Made by a program: the position numbers and the translations under genes. The notes beneath the pieces were generated by a model. The model worked only from the letters and a program-made list of their open reading frames with translations. It made no database searches and was not told the origin of the DNA. This document shows, piece by piece, positions 21,050 to 31,055 of a stretch of 64,000 bases of DNA; the first letter of the stretch is position 1; each line of letters begins with the position of its first letter. The stretch lies in assembly GCF_018228765.1 (NCBI RefSeq), contig NZ_CP073695.1, positions 1,178,001 to 1,242,000 of the forward strand, in the 5' to 3' direction. This stretch comes from Halorubrum ruber (GTDB lineage Archaea > Halobacteriota > Halobacteria > Halobacteriales > Haloferacaceae).

Positions 21050-23194
21050 TCAGTCGTCTGCCGAAGCCGGCGAGTCGTCGCCCGCGGCCTCGATGCCGAC
21101 CTCGATCTCGGCGGCCGCGGCCTTGTACTCGGGAATCTTGGCGCGCTCGTCGAGCACGTCGTTGGTGAGGCGGTTCGCGGAGGCGGCCGCGAAGTGCGGC
21201 GTGGTCCAGACGACGCCCTCCTTGATGTCCTCGGTGACGTCGGCGCGGACGGTGATCTCGCCGCGGCGGGACTTCAGCACGACGTCGTCGCCGTCCTCGA
21301 TGCCGTACCGCTCGGCGTCGTTCGGGTGGACGTCGACGAAGTTCTCCGGGTGCTGCTTCGAGAGCGTGGGCGAGCGGCGGCTCATCGTCCCGGTGTTGTA
21401 GTGTTCTTCGAGCCGCGCGGTGGTCAACACGAGCGGGTACTCCTCGTCCGGGACCTCCTTCGGCTCCTGGTGGACGACGCCCTCGATGCGGCCGAGGCCG
21501 TCCTCGGTCTCGAACTCGTCCTCGTAGAGGAAGGGGTCGCCCTCGTCGCCCTCCTCGTAGCAGGGCCAGTGGAGCCCCGTCTCGCCGAGCGCGTCGTAGG
21601 TCATCCCGTGCATGATCGGGCACACCTCGCGCAGCTCCTCGAACACGTCCTCCGGCCCCTCAAAGTCGAACTCGTCGCCGTCGAACAGCCGCGTCCCGAC
21701 CTCACAGAGGATGTCGAGGTCGTGGCGCGTGTTCTCGTGGACCTTGTGGACGCCGCGCATGCGCTGGACGCGCCGGTCGGTGTTGGTGACGGTGCCGTCG
21801 CGCTCGGCCCACGTCGTCGCCGGGAGGACCACGTCCGCGAGCTCGGCGGTCTCGGTCATGAAGATGTCTTGGACCACCATGAAGTCGAGTTCCTCGCGGA
21901 ACCGCTTCTCGGTCTCGTTGCCGTCCGGCTCGCTCATGATCGGGTTCTCGCCCATGACGTAGAGGCCGTGGACGGTGTCGCCGATCGCGTGGGAGATCTC
22001 GACGTTCGTCAGCCCGGGCTCCGAGGGGATATCGAACCCCCACACGTCCTCGACGCTCTCGCGCGCCTCGTCGTCGTCGACGAGCTGGTACCCCGGGAGG
22101 ACGTTCGGCATCGCGCCCACGTCGCAGGTGCCCTGGACGTTGTTCTGCCCGCGCAGGGGGTTGACACCCGTGCCCGGCCGGCCGAGGTTCCCCGTGATCA
22201 GCGCGAGGTTGATCTCGTTTTGTACGTTGTCGACGCCGCACGTGTGCTGGCTCATCCCCATGCCGGTGAAGATGGCGGCGTCGTTGGCCATCGCGTACTT
22301 CTCGGCGGCGAGCTCGATGTCCTCCAGCGGAACGCCGCACTCCTCGGCGGCCGCCTCCTTGTCGAAGTCCGCGAGCGTCTCCTTCAGGTGGTCGATCCCC
22401 TTCGTGCGCTCCTCGACGAACGCCTCGTCGATCCAGCCCGCGTCCGGCTCGTCCTCGTGCCGCTCTAAGATCGTCTTGAGAACGATGTTAAGCAGCGGGA
22501 TGTCCGTGCCGGGCTTCAGCTGGAGGTGCATGTGCCGGTCGGTGTCGTCGATCTCGAACGACCGGGTGGTCTTGTTCGCGTGCGGGTCGACCTGGATGAC
22601 GGTCGCGCCCTCTAAGACGGCCTGTCGGAAGTACTGGCTGTTGGCGATCGGGTGCTGCTCGCCCGGGTTCGCGCCCTGGATCCACAGCACGTCTGCGGAG
22701 TCCTCTAAGTCGGCCATGCTGTTCGTCATCGCGCCCATCCCGAGGCTGGTGCGCAGCGCCCAGACGGTGGAAGCGTGACACATCCGCGTGCAGTTGTCGA
22801 CCTGATTCGTGCCGTACCGGCGCGCCAACTTCTGGATCAGGTAGTTCTCCTCGTTGAACGTCTTCGAGGAGCCGAAGAATCCCATCCCGTCCGGGCCGTG
22901 CTCCTCGCGGATCCCCTCCATCTCGTCGACGACCCGACCGAGCGCCTCGTCCCACGTCGCCTCGCGGAACTCGCCGTCCTCCTTGATCAACGGCTCGGTC
23001 AGCCGGTCCTCGTGGTCGACGACCTGCGTCGCCGCGCCGCCCTTGATACAGACGCTCCCCTCGTTCACCGGCGCGTCGCCCCACGGCATGAACCGCATCT
23101 CGCCGGGCTCGTCGCCCTCGAGGACGCGGATCCCGCAGCCGACGCCGCAGTACGGGCAGATCGTTTTCGTCGCGTCGTCCGGCTCACTGGACAT
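21050..23194 (-). CDS. fdhA: Formate dehydrogenase catalytic subunit (Mo/W bis-MGD oxidoreductase)
   Basis: This 714-residue protein should oxidise formate to CO2. The N-terminal [4Fe-4S] motif is CPYCGVGCGIRVLEG with the fourth Cys in GSVCIKGG (residues about 14-60). The metal-ligand region reads NCTRMCHASTVWALRTSLG near residue 140, matching the Cys (Sec in some bacteria) of formate dehydrogenases. Later motifs include GANPGEQHPIA and the C-terminal molydopterin-binding NTGTMSRRSPTL and TPHFAAASANRLT. No electron-transfer subunit or FdhD gene is adjacent. The ATG at 23194 was preferred over one three codons upstream. Nitrate reductase is less likely by the MCHAS motif. Confidence 0.86.
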   Translation of the reverse strand: MSSEPDDATKTICPYCGVGCGIRVLEGDEPGEMRFMPWGDAPVNEGSVCIKGGAATQVVDHEDRLTEPLIKEDGEFREATWDEALGRVVDEMEGIREEHGPDGMGFFGSSKTFNEENYLIQKLARRYGTNQVDNCTRMCHASTVWALRTSLGMGAMTNSMADLEDSADVLWIQGANPGEQHPIANSQYFRQAVLEGATVIQVDPHANKTTRSFEIDDTDRHMHLQLKPGTDIPLLNIVLKTILERHEDEPDAGWIDEAFVEERTKGIDHLKETLADFDKEAAAEECGVPLEDIELAAEKYAMANDAAIFTGMGMSQHTCGVDNVQNEINLALITGNLGRPGTGVNPLRGQNNVQGTCDVGAMPNVLPGYQLVDDDEARESVEDVWGFDIPSEPGLTNVEISHAIGDTVHGLYVMGENPIMSEPDGNETEKRFREELDFMVVQDIFMTETAELADVVLPATTWAERDGTVTNTDRRVQRMRGVHKVHENTRHDLDILCEVGTRLFDGDEFDFEGPEDVFEELREVCPIMHGMTYDALGETGLHWPCYEEGDEGDPFLYEDEFETEDGLGRIEGVVHQEPKEVPDEEYPLVLTTARLEEHYNTGTMSRRSPTLSKQHPENFVDVHPNDAERYGIEDGDDVVLKSRRGEITVRADVTEDIKEGVVWTTPHFAAASANRLTNDVLDERAKIPEYKAAAAEIEVGIEAAGDDSPASADD

Positions 23195-24291: not shown

Positions 24292-24438
24292 TTCGGTGTC
24301 CAATTGGAACCTCGATCTTCCGTAGTTTCTCTGCCATAACCGTAGCAAGCAGTAGGTACGCTTCAGCGAACCGCTGTTCAGGCGATTATGTATGTGAAGA
24401 ATGAGATTTCAACGGGGCCTTTCACGAGCGTCGAAGCG

Positions 24439-24544
24439 TGCGAAGTGGGAAGACGGTGCGAAGCGAGTGGGAGGACCGTGCGAAGCGAGTGGGAGGACCG
24501 TGCGAAGCGAGTGGGAAGACGGTGCGAAGCGAGTGGGAGGTCCG
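24439..24544. repeat. 22-bp tandem repeat, about five units
   Basis: Four near-identical units of TGCGAAGCGAGTGGGAGGAC plus two bases follow one shortened unit. Variation is limited to GGACCG, AGACGG and GGTCCG at the unit end. It is not a CRISPR array because there are no variable spacers between units. Confidence 0.9.
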
Positions 24545-24602
24545 CGAACCTTCGGGCCCTCGCGGTCGGCGTCGAGGCGGCACGGCTCTCCGCGCACAGA
24601 TC

Positions 24603-24674
24603 TGTTAACATCGGCGAACGTCTGATTGTTAAGGGTAAATATAATGGAAAAACATTTACTATGGTTTGTTAACA
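24603..24674. promoter_or_regulatory. Paired TGTTAACA palindromes upstream of formaldehyde dehydrogenase
   Basis: The 8-bp palindrome TGTTAACA occurs at 24603-24610 and 24667-24674, with a half-matching TGTTAAGG between them. The second site lies 20 bp before the ATG at 24694. AT-rich sequence with a TAAATATAATGG run lies between. The pair could bind a regulator across the promoter. Confidence 0.45.
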
Positions 24675-24693: not shown

Positions 24694-25863
24694 ATGAGAG
24701 CTGTTGTCTATCAAGGCCCGTACGACGTGGCCGTCGAAGACGTAGAGGAACCGGAGATAGAACACCCGAACGACGTCGTCGTCGACATCACGACGTCCTG
24801 TATCTGCGGGTCGGACCTCCACATGTACGAGGGCCGAACCGCGGCCGAGGAGGGGATCGTCTTCGGCCACGAGAACATGGGGATCGTCAGCGAGGTGGGC
24901 GAGGCGGTCTCGACGCTGGAGGAGGGCGACCGCGTCGTCATGCCGTTCAACGTCTCCTGCGGCTTCTGTCAGAACTGCGAGGAGGGGTACACCGGCTTCT
25001 GTACCAACGTCAACCCCGGCTTCGCGGGCGGCGCGTACGGCTACGTCGCCATGGGCCCGTATCCGGGCGGACAGGCGGAGAAGCTGCGCGTCCCGTACGC
25101 CGACCACAACGCGCTGAAGCTGCCGGAGGGCCGCGAACACGAGGACGCGTTCTCGCTGCTCGCGGACATCTTCCCGACGGGGTGGCACGGCACCGAACTC
25201 GCCAACCTCCAGCCCGGGGAGTCGGTCGCCATCTTCGGTGCCGGGCCGGTCGGGCTGATGGCCGCCTACAGCGCGAAGATCAAGGGCGCGGCCGAGATCT
25301 ACATCGTCGACCAGGTGCCGAGCCGACTGGAGCTGGCCGAGGAGTACTGCGACGCCCACGCCATCGACTTCTCCGAGGGCGATCCGGTCGACCAGATCAT
25401 CGAGGAGCACGGCGGGATGGTCGACAAGGGCGTCGACGCGGTCGGCTACCAGGCGACCGACCCGGACGACGTCGACACCGAGACGGAGGACTACTCCTAC
25501 CAGCCGGCCAAGGAGAACCCGGCGGTCGTGATCAACAACCTCATCCGCGTGGTCCGGCCGACCGGCGAGCTGGGAATTCCCGGCCTCTACGTCCCCGAGG
25601 ACCCCGGCGCGCCCGACGACATGGCCGCGCAGGGACGCCTCGGCATCGACTTCGGGAAGTTCTTCGAGAAGGGGCTCAAGTGTGGCACCGGGCAGTGTAA
25701 CGTGAAGGAGTACAACCGCTACCTGCGCGACATGATCATCGAGGGCCGAGCCGATCCGAGCTGGGTCGTCTCCCACCGGGTCAACCTCGACGAGGCGCCC
25801 GAGATGTACGAGGCGTTCGACGCCCGCGAGGAGGGCGTCACGAAGGTCCTGCTGGAGCCCTAA
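24694..25863 (+). CDS. Zinc-dependent formaldehyde/alcohol dehydrogenase (glutathione-independent type)
   Basis: This 389-residue medium-chain dehydrogenase has a catalytic zinc site built from Cys in SCICGSDLHMYEG (about residue 38) and the FGHENMG Glu-His pair near residue 60. A structural zinc site follows in CGFCQNCEEGYTGFC. The NAD-binding loop is FGAGPVGLMAAYSAK near residue 180. The long insertion after DAVGYQATDP and the length match glutathione-independent formaldehyde dehydrogenases, which oxidise formaldehyde to formate with bound NAD. Ordinary alcohol substrates are possible. A formate dehydrogenase lies 1.5 kb upstream on the other strand, so a C1 oxidation route is plausible. 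Confidence 0.82.
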   Translation: MRAVVYQGPYDVAVEDVEEPEIEHPNDVVVDITTSCICGSDLHMYEGRTAAEEGIVFGHENMGIVSEVGEAVSTLEEGDRVVMPFNVSCGFCQNCEEGYTGFCTNVNPGFAGGAYGYVAMGPYPGGQAEKLRVPYADHNALKLPEGREHEDAFSLLADIFPTGWHGTELANLQPGESVAIFGAGPVGLMAAYSAKIKGAAEIYIVDQVPSRLELAEEYCDAHAIDFSEGDPVDQIIEEHGGMVDKGVDAVGYQATDPDDVDTETEDYSYQPAKENPAVVINNLIRVVRPTGELGIPGLYVPEDPGAPDDMAAQGRLGIDFGKFFEKGLKCGTGQCNVKEYNRYLRDMIIEGRADPSWVVSHRVNLDEAPEMYEAFDAREEGVTKVLLEP

Positions 25864-26456: not shown

Positions 26457-27626
26457 TCATAGCGGGAACGCGTCCGCCGCTGTCTCCTCGACGGTCGCCG
26501 TCTTCTCGTCGGCGCCGGCCGTCGCCAAGGCGTCGAGTTCGCCGCGAATCTTCCCCTCGTCCATCTCGCTGCCGATGAACACGAGCCGCGTCCGGCGGTC
26601 GTCGTCGGGCCCCCACTCGCCGATCGGGCCCGCCTGTACCGAGGGGCCGGCCTGGCTCACGCCGATCACCTCGTCGGTGCCCGCGACGTTCGCGACGCCC
26701 TTCGCCCGCACGATGGCGCCGTCCCAGTCGTCGAGCCAGTCCGCGAACGGCTCCGGGTCGAGCGCGTCGGCGGAGCGGTAGACGAACGAGTCGACCCCGT
26801 GGGCCGCGGCGGCCCCCTCGGCGTGGTCGTGGTCGTGCGCGTGGCCGCTTCCTCCTTCTCCGCCCTCGCCCGTTGCGTCGCCCTCACCCGCCGCGCTGCC
26901 CTCGCTCGCGGCGATCTCGCGTTTCCACCCCGGCGACCGCTTTGCCGTCTCGAAGTCGAACCGCCCGGTGTCGAGCACGTCGCCGGGGTCGACCTCGGAG
27001 TAGCTCGTCCGGATCCGCTTCGCGCGCGGCCCCAACCGGTCGGCGACCGACTCGATCTCGTCGAGCACGTCGTCGGGGACCATGTCCGTCTTGTTCAACA
27101 CGAGCACGTCGCAGAACTCGATCCCCTCGACGAGCACGTCCGCGAGGGGCCGGTCGGCCGCCGGCTCGCCGTCGCCCGGGAGGCTCTCGCCGGCGTCGAA
27201 CTCCTTCCAGAACCCGTAGGTGTCGAGGACGGTCACCATCGTGTCCAGCCGGAAACGCTCGGTCGGGTCGACCTCGCTGTCCTCGGTCCCCTCGGTGAAC
27301 GCCCGGGCGACCGGGATCGGCTCGGAGATGCCCGACGACTCGACGAGGAGGTAGTCGAACTCGCGGGACTCGGCGAGCGCCGCGGCCTCAGAGAGGAGGT
27401 CGTCCTGGAGCCGGCAGCAGATACAGCCGTTCGAGAGGTCGACGACGCCCTCCTCGTCGTTCTCGCGGGCGACGAGTTCGGCGTCGACGTTCACCTCGCC
27501 CATGTCGTTTAAGATGACCGCGATGCGCCTGTCGCCGGGGTTCGCGAGCAGGTGATTCACCAATGTCGTCTTCCCGGCGCCGAGGTAGCCGCTGAGGACC
27601 GTGACCGGGATCCGGTCGTCTGTCAT
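26457..27626 (-). CDS. CobW/COG0523-family GTPase with His-rich loop (metallochaperone)
   Basis: This 389-residue P-loop GTPase has Walker [18 protein letters not shown] (residues about 10-26), the family metal motif [11 protein letters not shown] (about 72), switch-like ESSGISEP and the G4 motif LNKTDM. A histidine-rich stretch ([11 protein letters not shown], about residue 265) precedes the C-terminal CobW_C domain. Family members deliver metals such as Zn or Co to client enzymes. The client is unknown; nearby zinc dehydrogenases and zinc-finger proteins are candidates by position only. The ATG at 27626 is used; a GTG three codons upstream is possible. Confidence 0.9.
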
Positions 27627-27716
27627 GTGTGTCACCAGTGCCCACGTCTGTATGAAACGATCGATCGGAACGATCGAGACGAACGTTCATCCGTGCCACC
27701 GCCGTACCGCGAGGCG

Positions 27717-28316
27717 ATGGACCTGAGCGAGTCGACCGTCCGGGAGCGAGCCCGGGCGTACACAGAGACCGAACCGCTGTACGACGTGGAGCGCCAGCAC
27801 GTCGAGACGGTCCCAGAGACGTTCGCCGGCGACGAGTACGGGCGCCGGGACGCGCAGTGGATCGTCCGGTGGTATTTCCGGCGGTACCTCGGGGAGTACC
27901 CGGACCGCGAGCGGCGCGAGCGGGAGGAGGCGTTCCGCGACAACGAGTTCGACGACGTGATCGACGCCCTCGACGCCGCCGTCGACGCGGTGGGCGTAAA
28001 AAACGACGACTCAGCGAACGTCGACGACGCCCTCGACGCGCTCACCGCGCTCGACGGCGTCGACGTCGCGGTCGCGTCCGGATTTCTCCAGTTCCTCGCC
28101 CCGTCGCGGTTCGTCGCGATAGACCGCCGAACCTGGGAGGTCTTGGCCGCGGCCGGCGAGCTTGACGACGCCTACCCGGACCCGCCGTCGGCCGCCGACT
28201 ACCGGCGGTTCGACGACGCCTGTCGAGCCGTGATGGACCGGACCGGCGTCGACGCGTGGACGCTGTACCGGGCGCTGTGGCGGTCGTTCGAGGAGGTTCC
28301 GGGAGAGGACTCGTAG
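27717..28316 (+). CDS. Conserved hypothetical protein with HhH-like helical core (199 aa)
   Basis: A highly acidic, probably all-alpha protein. The segment LTALDGVDVAVASGFLQFLA with FVAIDRRTWEVLAAAGELDD resembles the helix-hairpin-helix glycosylase-like pattern of many small archaeal hypothetical proteins (L-x-GV-x3-AS...F...P...ID-R). No catalytic Asp, Lys or Fe-S cysteines of endonuclease III are seen. The ATG at 27717 was chosen because upstream sequence overlaps the CobW promoter. It lies 6 bp from the convergent YqeC gene stop. Function is unknown. Confidence 0.7.
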   Translation: MDLSESTVRERARAYTETEPLYDVERQHVETVPETFAGDEYGRRDAQWIVRWYFRRYLGEYPDRERREREEAFRDNEFDDVIDALDAAVDAVGVKNDDSANVDDALDALTALDGVDVAVASGFLQFLAPSRFVAIDRRTWEVLAAAGELDDAYPDPPSAADYRRFDDACRAVMDRTGVDAWTLYRALWRSFEEVPGEDS

Positions 28317-28321
28317 GGGAT

Positions 28322-29053
28322 CTACTCGACGACCTCGACGACCGGATCGTCCGCGATCAGGCGCGTGAGGATGACGCGCGGCACGTTCGCGCGGAAGAGA
28401 ATCTCACCGGCGATCGCTCGGGCCGCGTCCGCGTCGGCCTCGTCGTCGACCTTATTTACGACCGGAATCGCGGTCGCGTCGCCCGGCACGCCCTTCAGCC
28501 CGCCCGCGGGGCTCGCCAGGACCGTCGCGACGTCCGCGGGGCGGAGCTCGTCGCCGATCTCGCGGCCCGTGATCGCGGCGACCTCCTCCGGCCGGTGGAC
28601 GAGCTCCTCGGTGAGGGGTTCGCCGACGACGTGCGCGCTCGCGATCGGGACGACGACGTCCGCGTTTGCCGGGATCTGCGGCTCATGGTCGCCCGGCGCC
28701 TTGAAATCCCGGAGGCGCGCCCCGTCCGCCTTCACGAGCGTCGCGCCGGGCGCGGCGTCGGCGATCTCGGCGACGGTGTCGACGTCGTACCCGAGGTACC
28801 GGTCCGACCGCTCGCGCTCCGGAACCAGCCCGAGCGGCCAGTCGCCCTCGTCCGCCTCGTCGAGCGCGGCCACCGGGTCACCGGTCACGCGGACCGCGGC
28901 GACCCGGTCGTCGAAGATCGGTATCCGGACGCTCGCGGTCACGACCGACCGGTCGAGCCGGTCGGCGAGCGCGAACAGCGTCGACTTCTTGCCGCCCGCG
29001 CCGACGACGCAGACGGTCGCGTCGCGGGCGTCGAGCGCGGTCGTGAGGTCCAT
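28322..29053 (-). CDS. yqeC: YqeC-like selenium cofactor/molybdenum hydroxylase maturation protein
   Basis: This 243-residue protein begins with ATVCVVGAGGKKSTLFALA (residues about 11-29), the modified P-loop of the YqeC family. VVTASVRIP corresponds to the TTTT segment, and later VKADGARLRDFKAP and HEPQIPANADVVVPI match the family. In bacteria YqeC is linked to selenium-dependent molybdenum hydroxylases. Its job in haloarchaea is not established. It is divergent from an AOR-family gene starting 119 bp away, which supports a link to pterin-bound metal enzymes. Confidence 0.75.
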   Translation of the reverse strand: MDLTTALDARDATVCVVGAGGKKSTLFALADRLDRSVVTASVRIPIFDDRVAAVRVTGDPVAALDEADEGDWPLGLVPERERSDRYLGYDVDTVAEIADAAPGATLVKADGARLRDFKAPGDHEPQIPANADVVVPIASAHVVGEPLTEELVHRPEEVAAITGREIGDELRPADVATVLASPAGGLKGVPGDATAIPVVNKVDDEADADAARAIAGEILFRANVPRVILTRLIADDPVVEVVE

Positions 29054-29171: not shown

Positions 29172-31055
29172 ATGCGACGTCCCCGAACCCACGTCCTCCG
29201 CGTCGACCTCTCGACGGGCGAGACCGCCCGCGAGCGCGTCCCCCGCGACTGGCGACGCGACTACGTCGGCGGGAAGGGGCTCGGGGCGCGCTACCTCTAC
29301 GAGGAGCTGTCGCCGGGAACGGACCCGACGGGGCCCGAGAACCTCCTCGCGCTCCTCGTCGGGCCGCTCGCGGGCTACCTCCCCGGCGAGACGCGCTACG
29401 CCGCGGTGACGAAGTCCCCGCTCACCGGCGGTTTCCTCGACTCGTACGCGGGCGGCGAGTTCGCCGACCGGCTCGCGGGGTCGCTCGACGACTGCCTCGG
29501 CCTGCTCGTGACCGGCGCGGCCGACCGCCCGGTCCGGATCGAGGTCGAGGGGGGCCGCGCCCGGATCGAGGCGAGCGACGCGTGGGGCGACGACGCCGCC
29601 GAGACGGCCGACCGGTTCCCGGACGCCGGCGTCGCCTGCGTCGGCCCGGCGGGCGAGCGCGAGGCGGCCTACGCGACGGTCGCGAGCGACGGCGGCGCCC
29701 ACCACGCCGGCCGCGGCGGCGCCGGCGCCGTGATGGGATCGAAGCGGCTGAAGGCGGTCGTCGCCCGCGACCCGCCGCCGGCGGTCCCGGACGACCTCGC
29801 CGCGCTCCGCGACCGCGACGCGGCGGCCTACGGTCGGGACCCGACCGGCGAGTGGCAGGCCGCCGGCGAGACGGTCGAGACGGTCGACTACGCGGACGAA
29901 GTCGGGATCCTCGCCGCGGAGGGGTGGACGGAGATCGGCTTCGACGGCGCCGACGACATCGGCGTCGAGGCCGCGCTGGAGCGCGCGACCGGGCGCGAGG
30001 GCGAGGATCAGACCGTCCCCGGCGGCTTCCGGATCGACACGCCCGACGGCGAGGTGGTCCCGCGCGGCGCGGCGCCGATCACGCTCGGGGCCGGGCTCGG
30101 GATCGACGACTTCGACCGCGTCGTCGAGCTCTGCGGCGTCTGCGACCGACTCGGCCTCGACGTGATCGGCGCCGGCAACGCGGTCGCGTGGGCGGTCCGC
30201 GCCGGGGAGGCGGGGATCGTTGACTGTCCGGTCTCGTTCGGGGACGCCGACGGCGCAGAGCGACTCTTGGAAGCGATCGCGGCCCGCGAGACCCCGCCGG
30301 ACCTCGACGTCGACCCGGACCTGCCGGACGCGCTCGCCGACGGGGTCGACGCCGCGGTCGACCGGTTCGGCGGCGCGGACCTCGTGCCGACGGTGAAGTC
30401 GATGGCGCTGCCCGGCTTCGACCCGCGGGCGGCTGTCGGCGTCGCGCTCGCGTACGCGACGAGCGACCGCGGCGCGTGCCACCGCCGCGCGCGGCCGCAG
30501 GACACCGAGCCCCTCGCCCGCCCGGACCGGTCTCCCGCCGACCGGGTGCGCGACGTGGTCGGCGAGCAGAACGCGCGCTCCGTGCTGTGGAGTCTGGTCG
30601 TCGACGACTTCGTCGGCGAGGCGGCTTGGACCGACCTCGGCGCGGAGTGGCTCGCGGCGGTCGACCATCCTGCGGTCGCCGGCGTCGACCGCGGCGGCAC
30701 CGAGGACGAGACCGGCACCGCCACGCCGGGCGATCCGGTCGACGCGCTCGCGACGACCGGCGAGCGGATCTGGACACTCACGCGGCTGTTCAACGCACGC
30801 GAGGGGTTCGACCGCGCGGACGACGCGCTCCCCGAGCCGCTTCGCACGTCCGCGGCCGACGGCACGCCCGGCGTCGACGCCGACGCGTTCGACCGCCTGC
30901 TCGACCGGTACTACGCGGCGCGCGGGTGGGGCGACCGCGGGCTCCCGACGCCGGAGAGCCTCGGCCGGCTCGGCCTCGCGGACGTCGTCGACGACGCGAC
31001 CCCGCTGGACGGGCGCGCCATCGACCCCGCCGCGCCGGCCGAGTCCGACGGCTGA
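29172..31055 (+). CDS. Aldehyde ferredoxin oxidoreductase-family protein without visible Fe-S cysteine motif
   Basis: This 627-residue protein follows the AOR fold: YVGGKGLGARYLYEEL (about residue 31), ETRYAAVTKSPLTGGFLDSY with AGGEFADRL (about 75-100), and RGGAGAVMGSKRLKAVV near 185. RLGLDVIGAGN lies near 330, and a final NAREGFDRADDALPEPL near 540. These are pterin-binding and AOR hallmarks. However the CxxCxxxC cluster motif expected between residues 250 and 300 is absent (the region reads TVPGGFRIDTPDGEVVPRG), and no Cys replaces the C-terminal cluster ligand. It may be a cluster-free paralogue with altered chemistry. Frame and length are intact. Confidence 0.8.
   Translation: MRRPRTHVLRVDLSTGETARERVPRDWRRDYVGGKGLGARYLYEELSPGTDPTGPENLLALLVGPLAGYLPGETRYAAVTKSPLTGGFLDSYAGGEFADRLAGSLDDCLGLLVTGAADRPVRIEVEGGRARIEASDAWGDDAAETADRFPDAGVACVGPAGEREAAYATVASDGGAHHAGRGGAGAVMGSKRLKAVVARDPPPAVPDDLAALRDRDAAAYGRDPTGEWQAAGETVETVDYADEVGILAAEGWTEIGFDGADDIGVEAALERATGREGEDQTVPGGFRIDTPDGEVVPRGAAPITLGAGLGIDDFDRVVELCGVCDRLGLDVIGAGNAVAWAVRAGEAGIVDCPVSFGDADGAERLLEAIAARETPPDLDVDPDLPDALADGVDAAVDRFGGADLVPTVKSMALPGFDPRAAVGVALAYATSDRGACHRRARPQDTEPLARPDRSPADRVRDVVGEQNARSVLWSLVVDDFVGEAAWTDLGAEWLAAVDHPAVAGVDRGGTEDETGTATPGDPVDALATTGERIWTLTRLFNAREGFDRADDALPEPLRTSAADGTPGVDADAFDRLLDRYYAARGWGDRGLPTPESLGRLGLADVVDDATPLDGRAIDPAAPAESDG

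Follow-up and report, generated by a model that had tools for sequence, protein, structure and literature searches.

Which role is left to a protein of the aldehyde ferredoxin oxidoreductase (AOR) family once every cysteine that could hold its [4Fe-4S] cluster has gone? The question is raised by a gene of Halorubrum ruber, found in a 64,000-nucleotide stretch of contig NZ_CP073695.1 (positions 1,178,001 to 1,242,000) that is called the window here. The cofactor and [4Fe-4S] ligands of AOR/WOR enzymes have been described as highly conserved, and 92 WOR clades were distinguished in a 2026 classification (PMC13328260). A large haloarchaeal clade from which the whole cluster has been removed breaks this rule of ligand conservation, and points to a fold that has been recruited for something else.

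A cluster-less protein with the AOR fold

The 627-residue protein, referred to below as the Cys-less AOR, is covered almost end to end by AFOR_N (198 bits, E 1.7e-58) and AFOR_C (228 bits, E 2.3e-67), and sequence comparison recovered solved AORs with a best value of 2.8e-73. Only AFOR domains were found; the FdhD-NarQ domain (PF02634) that marks the FdhD family was not among them. An AlphaFold2 model computed from a 33-row alignment reached a pLDDT of 88.8 and a pTM of 0.91, its least certain internal parts being residues 275-283, where the ligand loop has been replaced (pLDDT <50), and the loop at 506-517. In a Foldseek search the significant PDB matches of this model were AOR-family structures only, headed by 9mqx, 1b25, 9g7j and 1aor (TM 0.84-0.86) and followed by 8c0z, WOR5 and BamB. 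The protein thus has both domains and the predicted fold by which the AOR/WOR family is recognized. No obvious Tat signal was seen on inspection of its sequence (start MRRPRTHVLRVDL), and two canonical paralogues with CxxCxxxC are encoded in the same 3.02-Mb genome.

Table 1 Features of the Cys-less AOR gene and its neighbourhood in the window.
Feature	Position	Strand	Remarks
Formate dehydrogenase alpha subunit FdhA	21065..23179	-	TIGR01591, 724 bits (cut-off 666)
Zn-dependent dehydrogenase, nearest glutathione-independent formaldehyde dehydrogenase	24694..25863	+	TIGR02819, below cut-off
CobW-family metallochaperone GTPase	26457..27635	-	Conserved neighbour, one lineage
199-aa conserved protein	27717..28316	+	Near FdhA and Cys-less AOR in 18/94 loci
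YqeC	28322..29053	-	PF19842; TIGR03172, 168 bits (cut-off 73)
Cys-less AOR-family protein, 627 aa	29172..31055	+	Exact ORF bounds; AFOR_N and AFOR_C; AlphaFold model
Segment in place of the CxxCxxxC ligand loop, about residues 272-297	29985..30062	+	pLDDT <50 at 275-283, partly disordered
R298-G299-A300, in place of the E311-Y312-E313 active-site motif	30063..30071	+	R298 and G299 invariant, 85/85
H437 (= H448), kept second-shell residue	30480..30482	+	85/85
W473...D478, in place of D489xxGLC494 (second pterin motif and fourth cluster ligand)	30588..30605	+	W and D invariant, 85/85

Ligand and active-site positions are numbered as in P. furiosus AOR, where C288, C291, C295 and C494 are the ligands; residues of the window protein follow in brackets. 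The window protein holds six cysteines (C108, C156, C321, C324, C352 and C436), none of them in the stretch aligning with CxxCxxxC (about residues 270-297). No cysteine follows C436, so that none can serve as the C494 ligand, a position taken by D478. Both losses had been read from the single sequence in the preliminary description, and both recur throughout the haloarchaeal orthologues: in an alignment of 85 non-identical Cys-less haloarchaeal sequences with 47 canonical homologues, C288, C291 and C295 fall in gaps in 85/85 and C494 is replaced by Asp in 85/85. The four ligand cysteines characteristic of the family are accordingly present in 47/47 canonical homologues and in 0/85 Cys-less orthologues, and no set of four cysteines in equivalent positions came to light. 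Agreement among 85 orthologues rules out a frameshift, a sequencing error or a mis-called ORF as the cause of the loss. C321 and C324 were considered as substitute ligands and rejected; both lie in the region of the first DxxGLD motif, C324 being family-wide and C321 unconserved among the other Cys-less orthologues. The segment that replaces the ligand loop varies in length within Halorubrum.

Changes extend well beyond the cluster. In all 85 Cys-less sequences E311 is replaced by Arg (R298), Y312 by Gly (G299), D489 by Trp (W473), R182 by His and N93 by Tyr. The catalytic base E313 is likewise gone throughout (Ala in 77, Ser in 4, Gly in 4). Retained are T243, H448, R186 and D343 (each 85/85) and R76 (82/85), as well as G95 and the glycines of the phosphate and pterin loops in the window protein; the Y427 position holds Tyr in 73 of the 85 and Phe in 12, including the window protein. 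From the second-shell set of aldehyde oxidisers (T243/E313/Y427/H448), T243 and H448 are therefore kept and E313 is lost. The aligned residues show that the cluster site has been rebuilt in concert with the catalytic acid and with one of the pterin motifs, the rest of the pocket being left standing.

The earlier reading that the fold and pterin motifs are intact consequently needs to be divided: the fold and R76, G95, R186, T243, D343 and H448 stand, while N93, R182 and the second DxxGLC motif do not, and the same division applies to the pockets of the homologues. In the putative W/Mo-bis-pyranopterin and Mg2+ environment, R76, G95, R186 and D343 persist beside the alterations N93Y, R182H and D489W; Mg contacts in the AOR family are made by the main chain (PMC12096430). 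Because residues of the second pterin site are altered, the protein may bind one pterin or none. With the cluster gone, electrons can no longer take their normal route, in line with the previous suggestion that the usual transfer to ferredoxin is implausible, and loss of E313, which had gone unnoticed together with that of Y312, removes the proposed proton acceptor of the reaction mechanism (PMC12096430), making ordinary aldehyde oxidation unlikely. The Cys-less AOR is a member of the AOR family by fold and descent that departs from it in cluster and catalytic residues, and it probably has a new role.

A single haloarchaeal clade

Orthologues with 49-91% identity to the window protein occur across haloarchaea, in at least 12 family-level groups. 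The Cys-less sequences form a single clade (SH-aLRT 100) on a stem of 1.44 substitutions per site, and the long branches in the tree leave its exact sister group unsure. By identity, the closest canonical relative found is a haloarchaeal AOR paralogue (loci L172-L175; 41-44%). This paralogue resembles the Cys-less proteins around position 494, where both have a motif of haloarchaeal type (SMVxCxF versus SLVxDDF), but retains CxxCxxxC, GPEYE and C494, and, unlike the Cys-less AOR, is found in genomes without YqeC. A phylum-level search gave no Cys-less match beyond the order; the remaining matches showed just 33-39% identity, and each of the eleven inspected had at least CxxC and the C494 cysteine. 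A long-branch AOR-family protein from Chloroflexi (L077) reads CWGCPVKAG, a ligand motif without the third cysteine, possibly an independent partial ligand loss judging by this motif.

Association with formate dehydrogenase, YqeC and MobA

In the window, the genes for YqeC and the Cys-less AOR are divergently transcribed with about 118 bp between them, and the FdhA gene marks the far end of the same cluster. The Zn-dependent dehydrogenase is a conserved neighbour in Halorubrum and its relatives. No Pfam or NCBIfam match was found for the 199-residue protein, possibly a further formate dehydrogenase (FDH) accessory. Direct-repeat DNA, reading VGRRCEASGR..., lies within this cluster at 24388-24672, just upstream of the Zn-dehydrogenase gene.

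Across 94 Cys-less AOR loci, an FdhA-family gene is nearby in 56, YqeC in 43 (21 within 300 bp), a MobA-like gene in 23 (16 within 300 bp), and a TorD-like chaperone and an FlpD/ferredoxin protein in 35; 74/94 loci carry at least one of FDH, YqeC, MobA and TorD. Several families share the trio YqeC>-MobA<-AOR> (L119, L131, L132, L136, L146, L159 and others). The neighbouring FDHs differ in architecture. Some have a cytosolic FdhA, some a Tat-signal FdhA accompanied by TorD, and in others FdhA is joined by a NuoF-like subunit or by a ferredoxin subunit plus a membrane protein. FdhA genes lie at a median of 4.6 kb from the Cys-less AOR gene, mostly in separate transcription units. In one locus (L061) MoeA and an ABC transporter, which may be a putative tungstate carrier, also adjoin. 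A DUF7124 protein, long and acidic in its N-terminal region, is encoded in 38/94 loci (L056:7863-8810 and 37 more; 35 within 300 bp, median distance 0 bp), where its gene immediately follows that of the Cys-less AOR in Tat-formate-dehydrogenase clusters. In L128 and L129, a canonical AOR and a ThiS/SAMP-like protein are found near the Cys-less AOR, recalling the 'WorX' neighbours of Class I WORs (PMC13328260).

Presence across genomes follows the same pattern. The Cys-less AOR was counted in 205 of 392 genomes, six genomes holding only the 41-44% canonical paralogue being left out of this count. YqeC is encoded in 203 of the 205, both exceptions being incomplete assemblies (77% and 85%), and in 226 of 230 FdhA genomes. 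One of three FdhA types is present in at least 193/205, namely the cytosolic type in 161 and Tat-FdhA, scanned for in 80 genomes only, in a further 32; among 31 control genomes without the Cys-less AOR, Tat-FdhA was found in none. In some of the 12 remaining genomes (e.g. G002, G182) a NuoF-linked FDH adjoins the Cys-less AOR. NasA, the haloarchaeal nitrate reductase and another molybdopterin oxidoreductase, served as a control and showed no link to the Cys-less AOR (odds ratio 1.5, p 0.054; Fisher p-values here overstate significance, as the genomes are phylogenetically non-independent and were counted without kinship correction); on this control a general association with molybdopterin enzymes was rejected. 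As would be expected of a maturation factor, the Cys-less AOR co-occurs and clusters with its candidate client enzyme and with Moco genes. Its absence from 36 of 197 genomes with the two cytosolic-type FdhA classes shows that it is not strictly required.

Haloarchaea without FdhD

YqeC is named as a marker of selenium-dependent molybdenum hydroxylases. It has been linked to the maturation of these enzymes in a role that is unsettled, and a yqeC deletion in C. difficile had no obvious phenotype (PMC11448449). In other organisms the sulfuration of the cofactor and its delivery to FDHs is carried out by FdhD, which is missing from some organisms that have FDHs (PMC10609526). The FdhD domain PF02634 was detected in 0/59 haloarchaeal genomes from 17 family-level groups, including G000, whereas the positive controls Methanocaldococcus, Methanosarcina, Sulfolobus and E. 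coli all matched; at least 28 of the 59 FdhD-less genomes encode FdhA. The module of YqeC, Cys-less AOR and FdhA in FdhD-less organisms provides a concrete genetic system in which to approach both the absence of FdhD and the function of YqeC.

A possible cofactor carrier in formate dehydrogenase maturation

The near-obligate pairing with YqeC, the linkage to MobA, the specificity for FDH and the presence of these FDHs in different compartments together point to cofactor maturation. An accessory, or helper, role of the Cys-less AOR is well supported by inference from these associations. The previous alternative of a new reaction or a structural role accordingly shifts: the gene is tied, by its distribution as well as by its location, to YqeC, MobA and formate dehydrogenases, which had not been seen at the time and which favours cofactor handling or maturation over a new reaction. 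We regard as the best explanation, with slightly more belief than doubt, that an AOR has been converted into a cytoplasmic protein that carries Mo/W-pterin, or serves as its scaffold, in FDH maturation.

The AOR cofactor is a Mo/W-bis-pyranopterin without nucleotide and, in chemical terms, the precursor of bis-MGD, an intermediate that a dead AOR would be naturally suited to hold. On this view, an AOR paralogue of the canonical haloarchaeal kind would have lost both its [4Fe-4S] cluster and the catalytic acid to become a cytoplasmic FDH accessory protein, whose remaining pocket may still hold a Mo/W-pyranopterin, either as bis-MPT or as an intermediate with one pterin. Acting as a carrier, or as a scaffold for assembly, it could pass the precursor to MobA for GMP addition and on to apo-FdhA, with the handover perhaps taking place during insertion of the sulfido ligand with YqeC, and would thereby cover part of the job done by FdhD elsewhere. 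Its proposed place in the pathway, the handling of the cofactor ahead of insertion into FdhA, would resemble that of FdhD, but the two families are unrelated. Against the carrier explanation stand the changed parts of the canonical pterin and Mg environment (N93Y, R182H and D489W), the genomes that have cytosolic-type FdhA and lack the gene (36/197), the unsettled function of YqeC, and the fact that no Moco chaperone known to us has an AOR fold. The fuller proposal, that YqeC and the dead, cluster-less AOR form an FdhD-free haloarchaeal pathway which binds, sulfurates or loads the Mo/W-pterin and delivers it to FdhA, is put forward more tentatively, as a possibility that we would not yet bet on. 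If true, a metallo-enzyme fold has been re-used as a cofactor chaperone.

Four other explanations were weighed. The protein could act in C1 (formaldehyde/formate) metabolism as a W/Mo enzyme without a cluster of its own, passing electrons to a flavin, a quinone or a partner Fe-S protein, or catalyzing a non-redox reaction. BamB and YdhV are precedents for changed chemistry in an AOR fold (PMC12096430), T243, H448 and mostly Y427 are kept, and a formaldehyde-dehydrogenase-like Zn enzyme is nearby in 20/94 loci and a formate-tetrahydrofolate ligase in L051, L088, L106, L107 and others. These C1 neighbours are limited to few lineages, however, while YqeC and FdhA accompany the protein almost everywhere, and such an enzyme would have to work without the cluster, the proposed proton-relay acid E313 and Y312, so that we consider it unlikely. 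A structural or regulatory subunit of the FDH complex would account for the strong genomic association with FdhA, but the FDHs found with this one protein may be cytosolic, Tat-exported or NuoF-linked, a range more in keeping with a maturation factor that they share than with a subunit; together with the distance of the FdhA genes, their mostly separate transcription and the lack of an obvious Tat signal, this renders the subunit explanation improbable.

We give equally little credence to a Mo/W sensor, store or metal-selectivity factor, which would keep W and Mo apart between AOR and FDH instead of inserting the cofactor. Descent from a presumed W-enzyme speaks for it, as do the MoeA and transporter genes of L061 and the canonical AOR and ThiS/SAMP-like genes of L128-L129, but it leaves unexplained why the distribution is specific to FDH and YqeC without a link to NasA. 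Loss of cluster and catalytic residues would also be seen in a decaying pseudo-enzyme without function. This reading is essentially refuted by the dN/dS of 0.15-0.27 among close pairs of Cys-less AORs, which indicates purifying selection; the new residues invariant in 85/85 sequences and the retention of the gene in so many family-level groups likewise leave it hardly any probability.

Relation to known AOR-fold systems

A search of open-access papers for Cys-less AORs or haloarchaeal FDH maturation found no description of the clade, which may already be numbered among the 92 WOR clades of PMC13328260. The characterized AOR/WOR enzymes (P. furiosus AOR 1aor, FOR 1b25, the bifurcating WOR 9mqx and Haloferax WOR83 9q1t) have 27-31% structural identity to the Cys-less AOR and share with it AFOR_N and AFOR_C, the fold, T243, H448, R76 and the phosphate-loop glycines. 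Their cysteine ligands, E313, Y312 and D489 are missing from the Cys-less AOR, which has the invariant residues R298, W473, D478 and H177 instead. Like the Cys-less AOR, the class II benzoyl-CoA reductase BamB and YdhV have an AOR fold without the usual set of second-shell residues; in both, an additional Cys coordinates the metal, and BamB retains its Fe4S4 cluster (PMC12096430), whereas the Cys-less AOR has given up the cluster ligands altogether.
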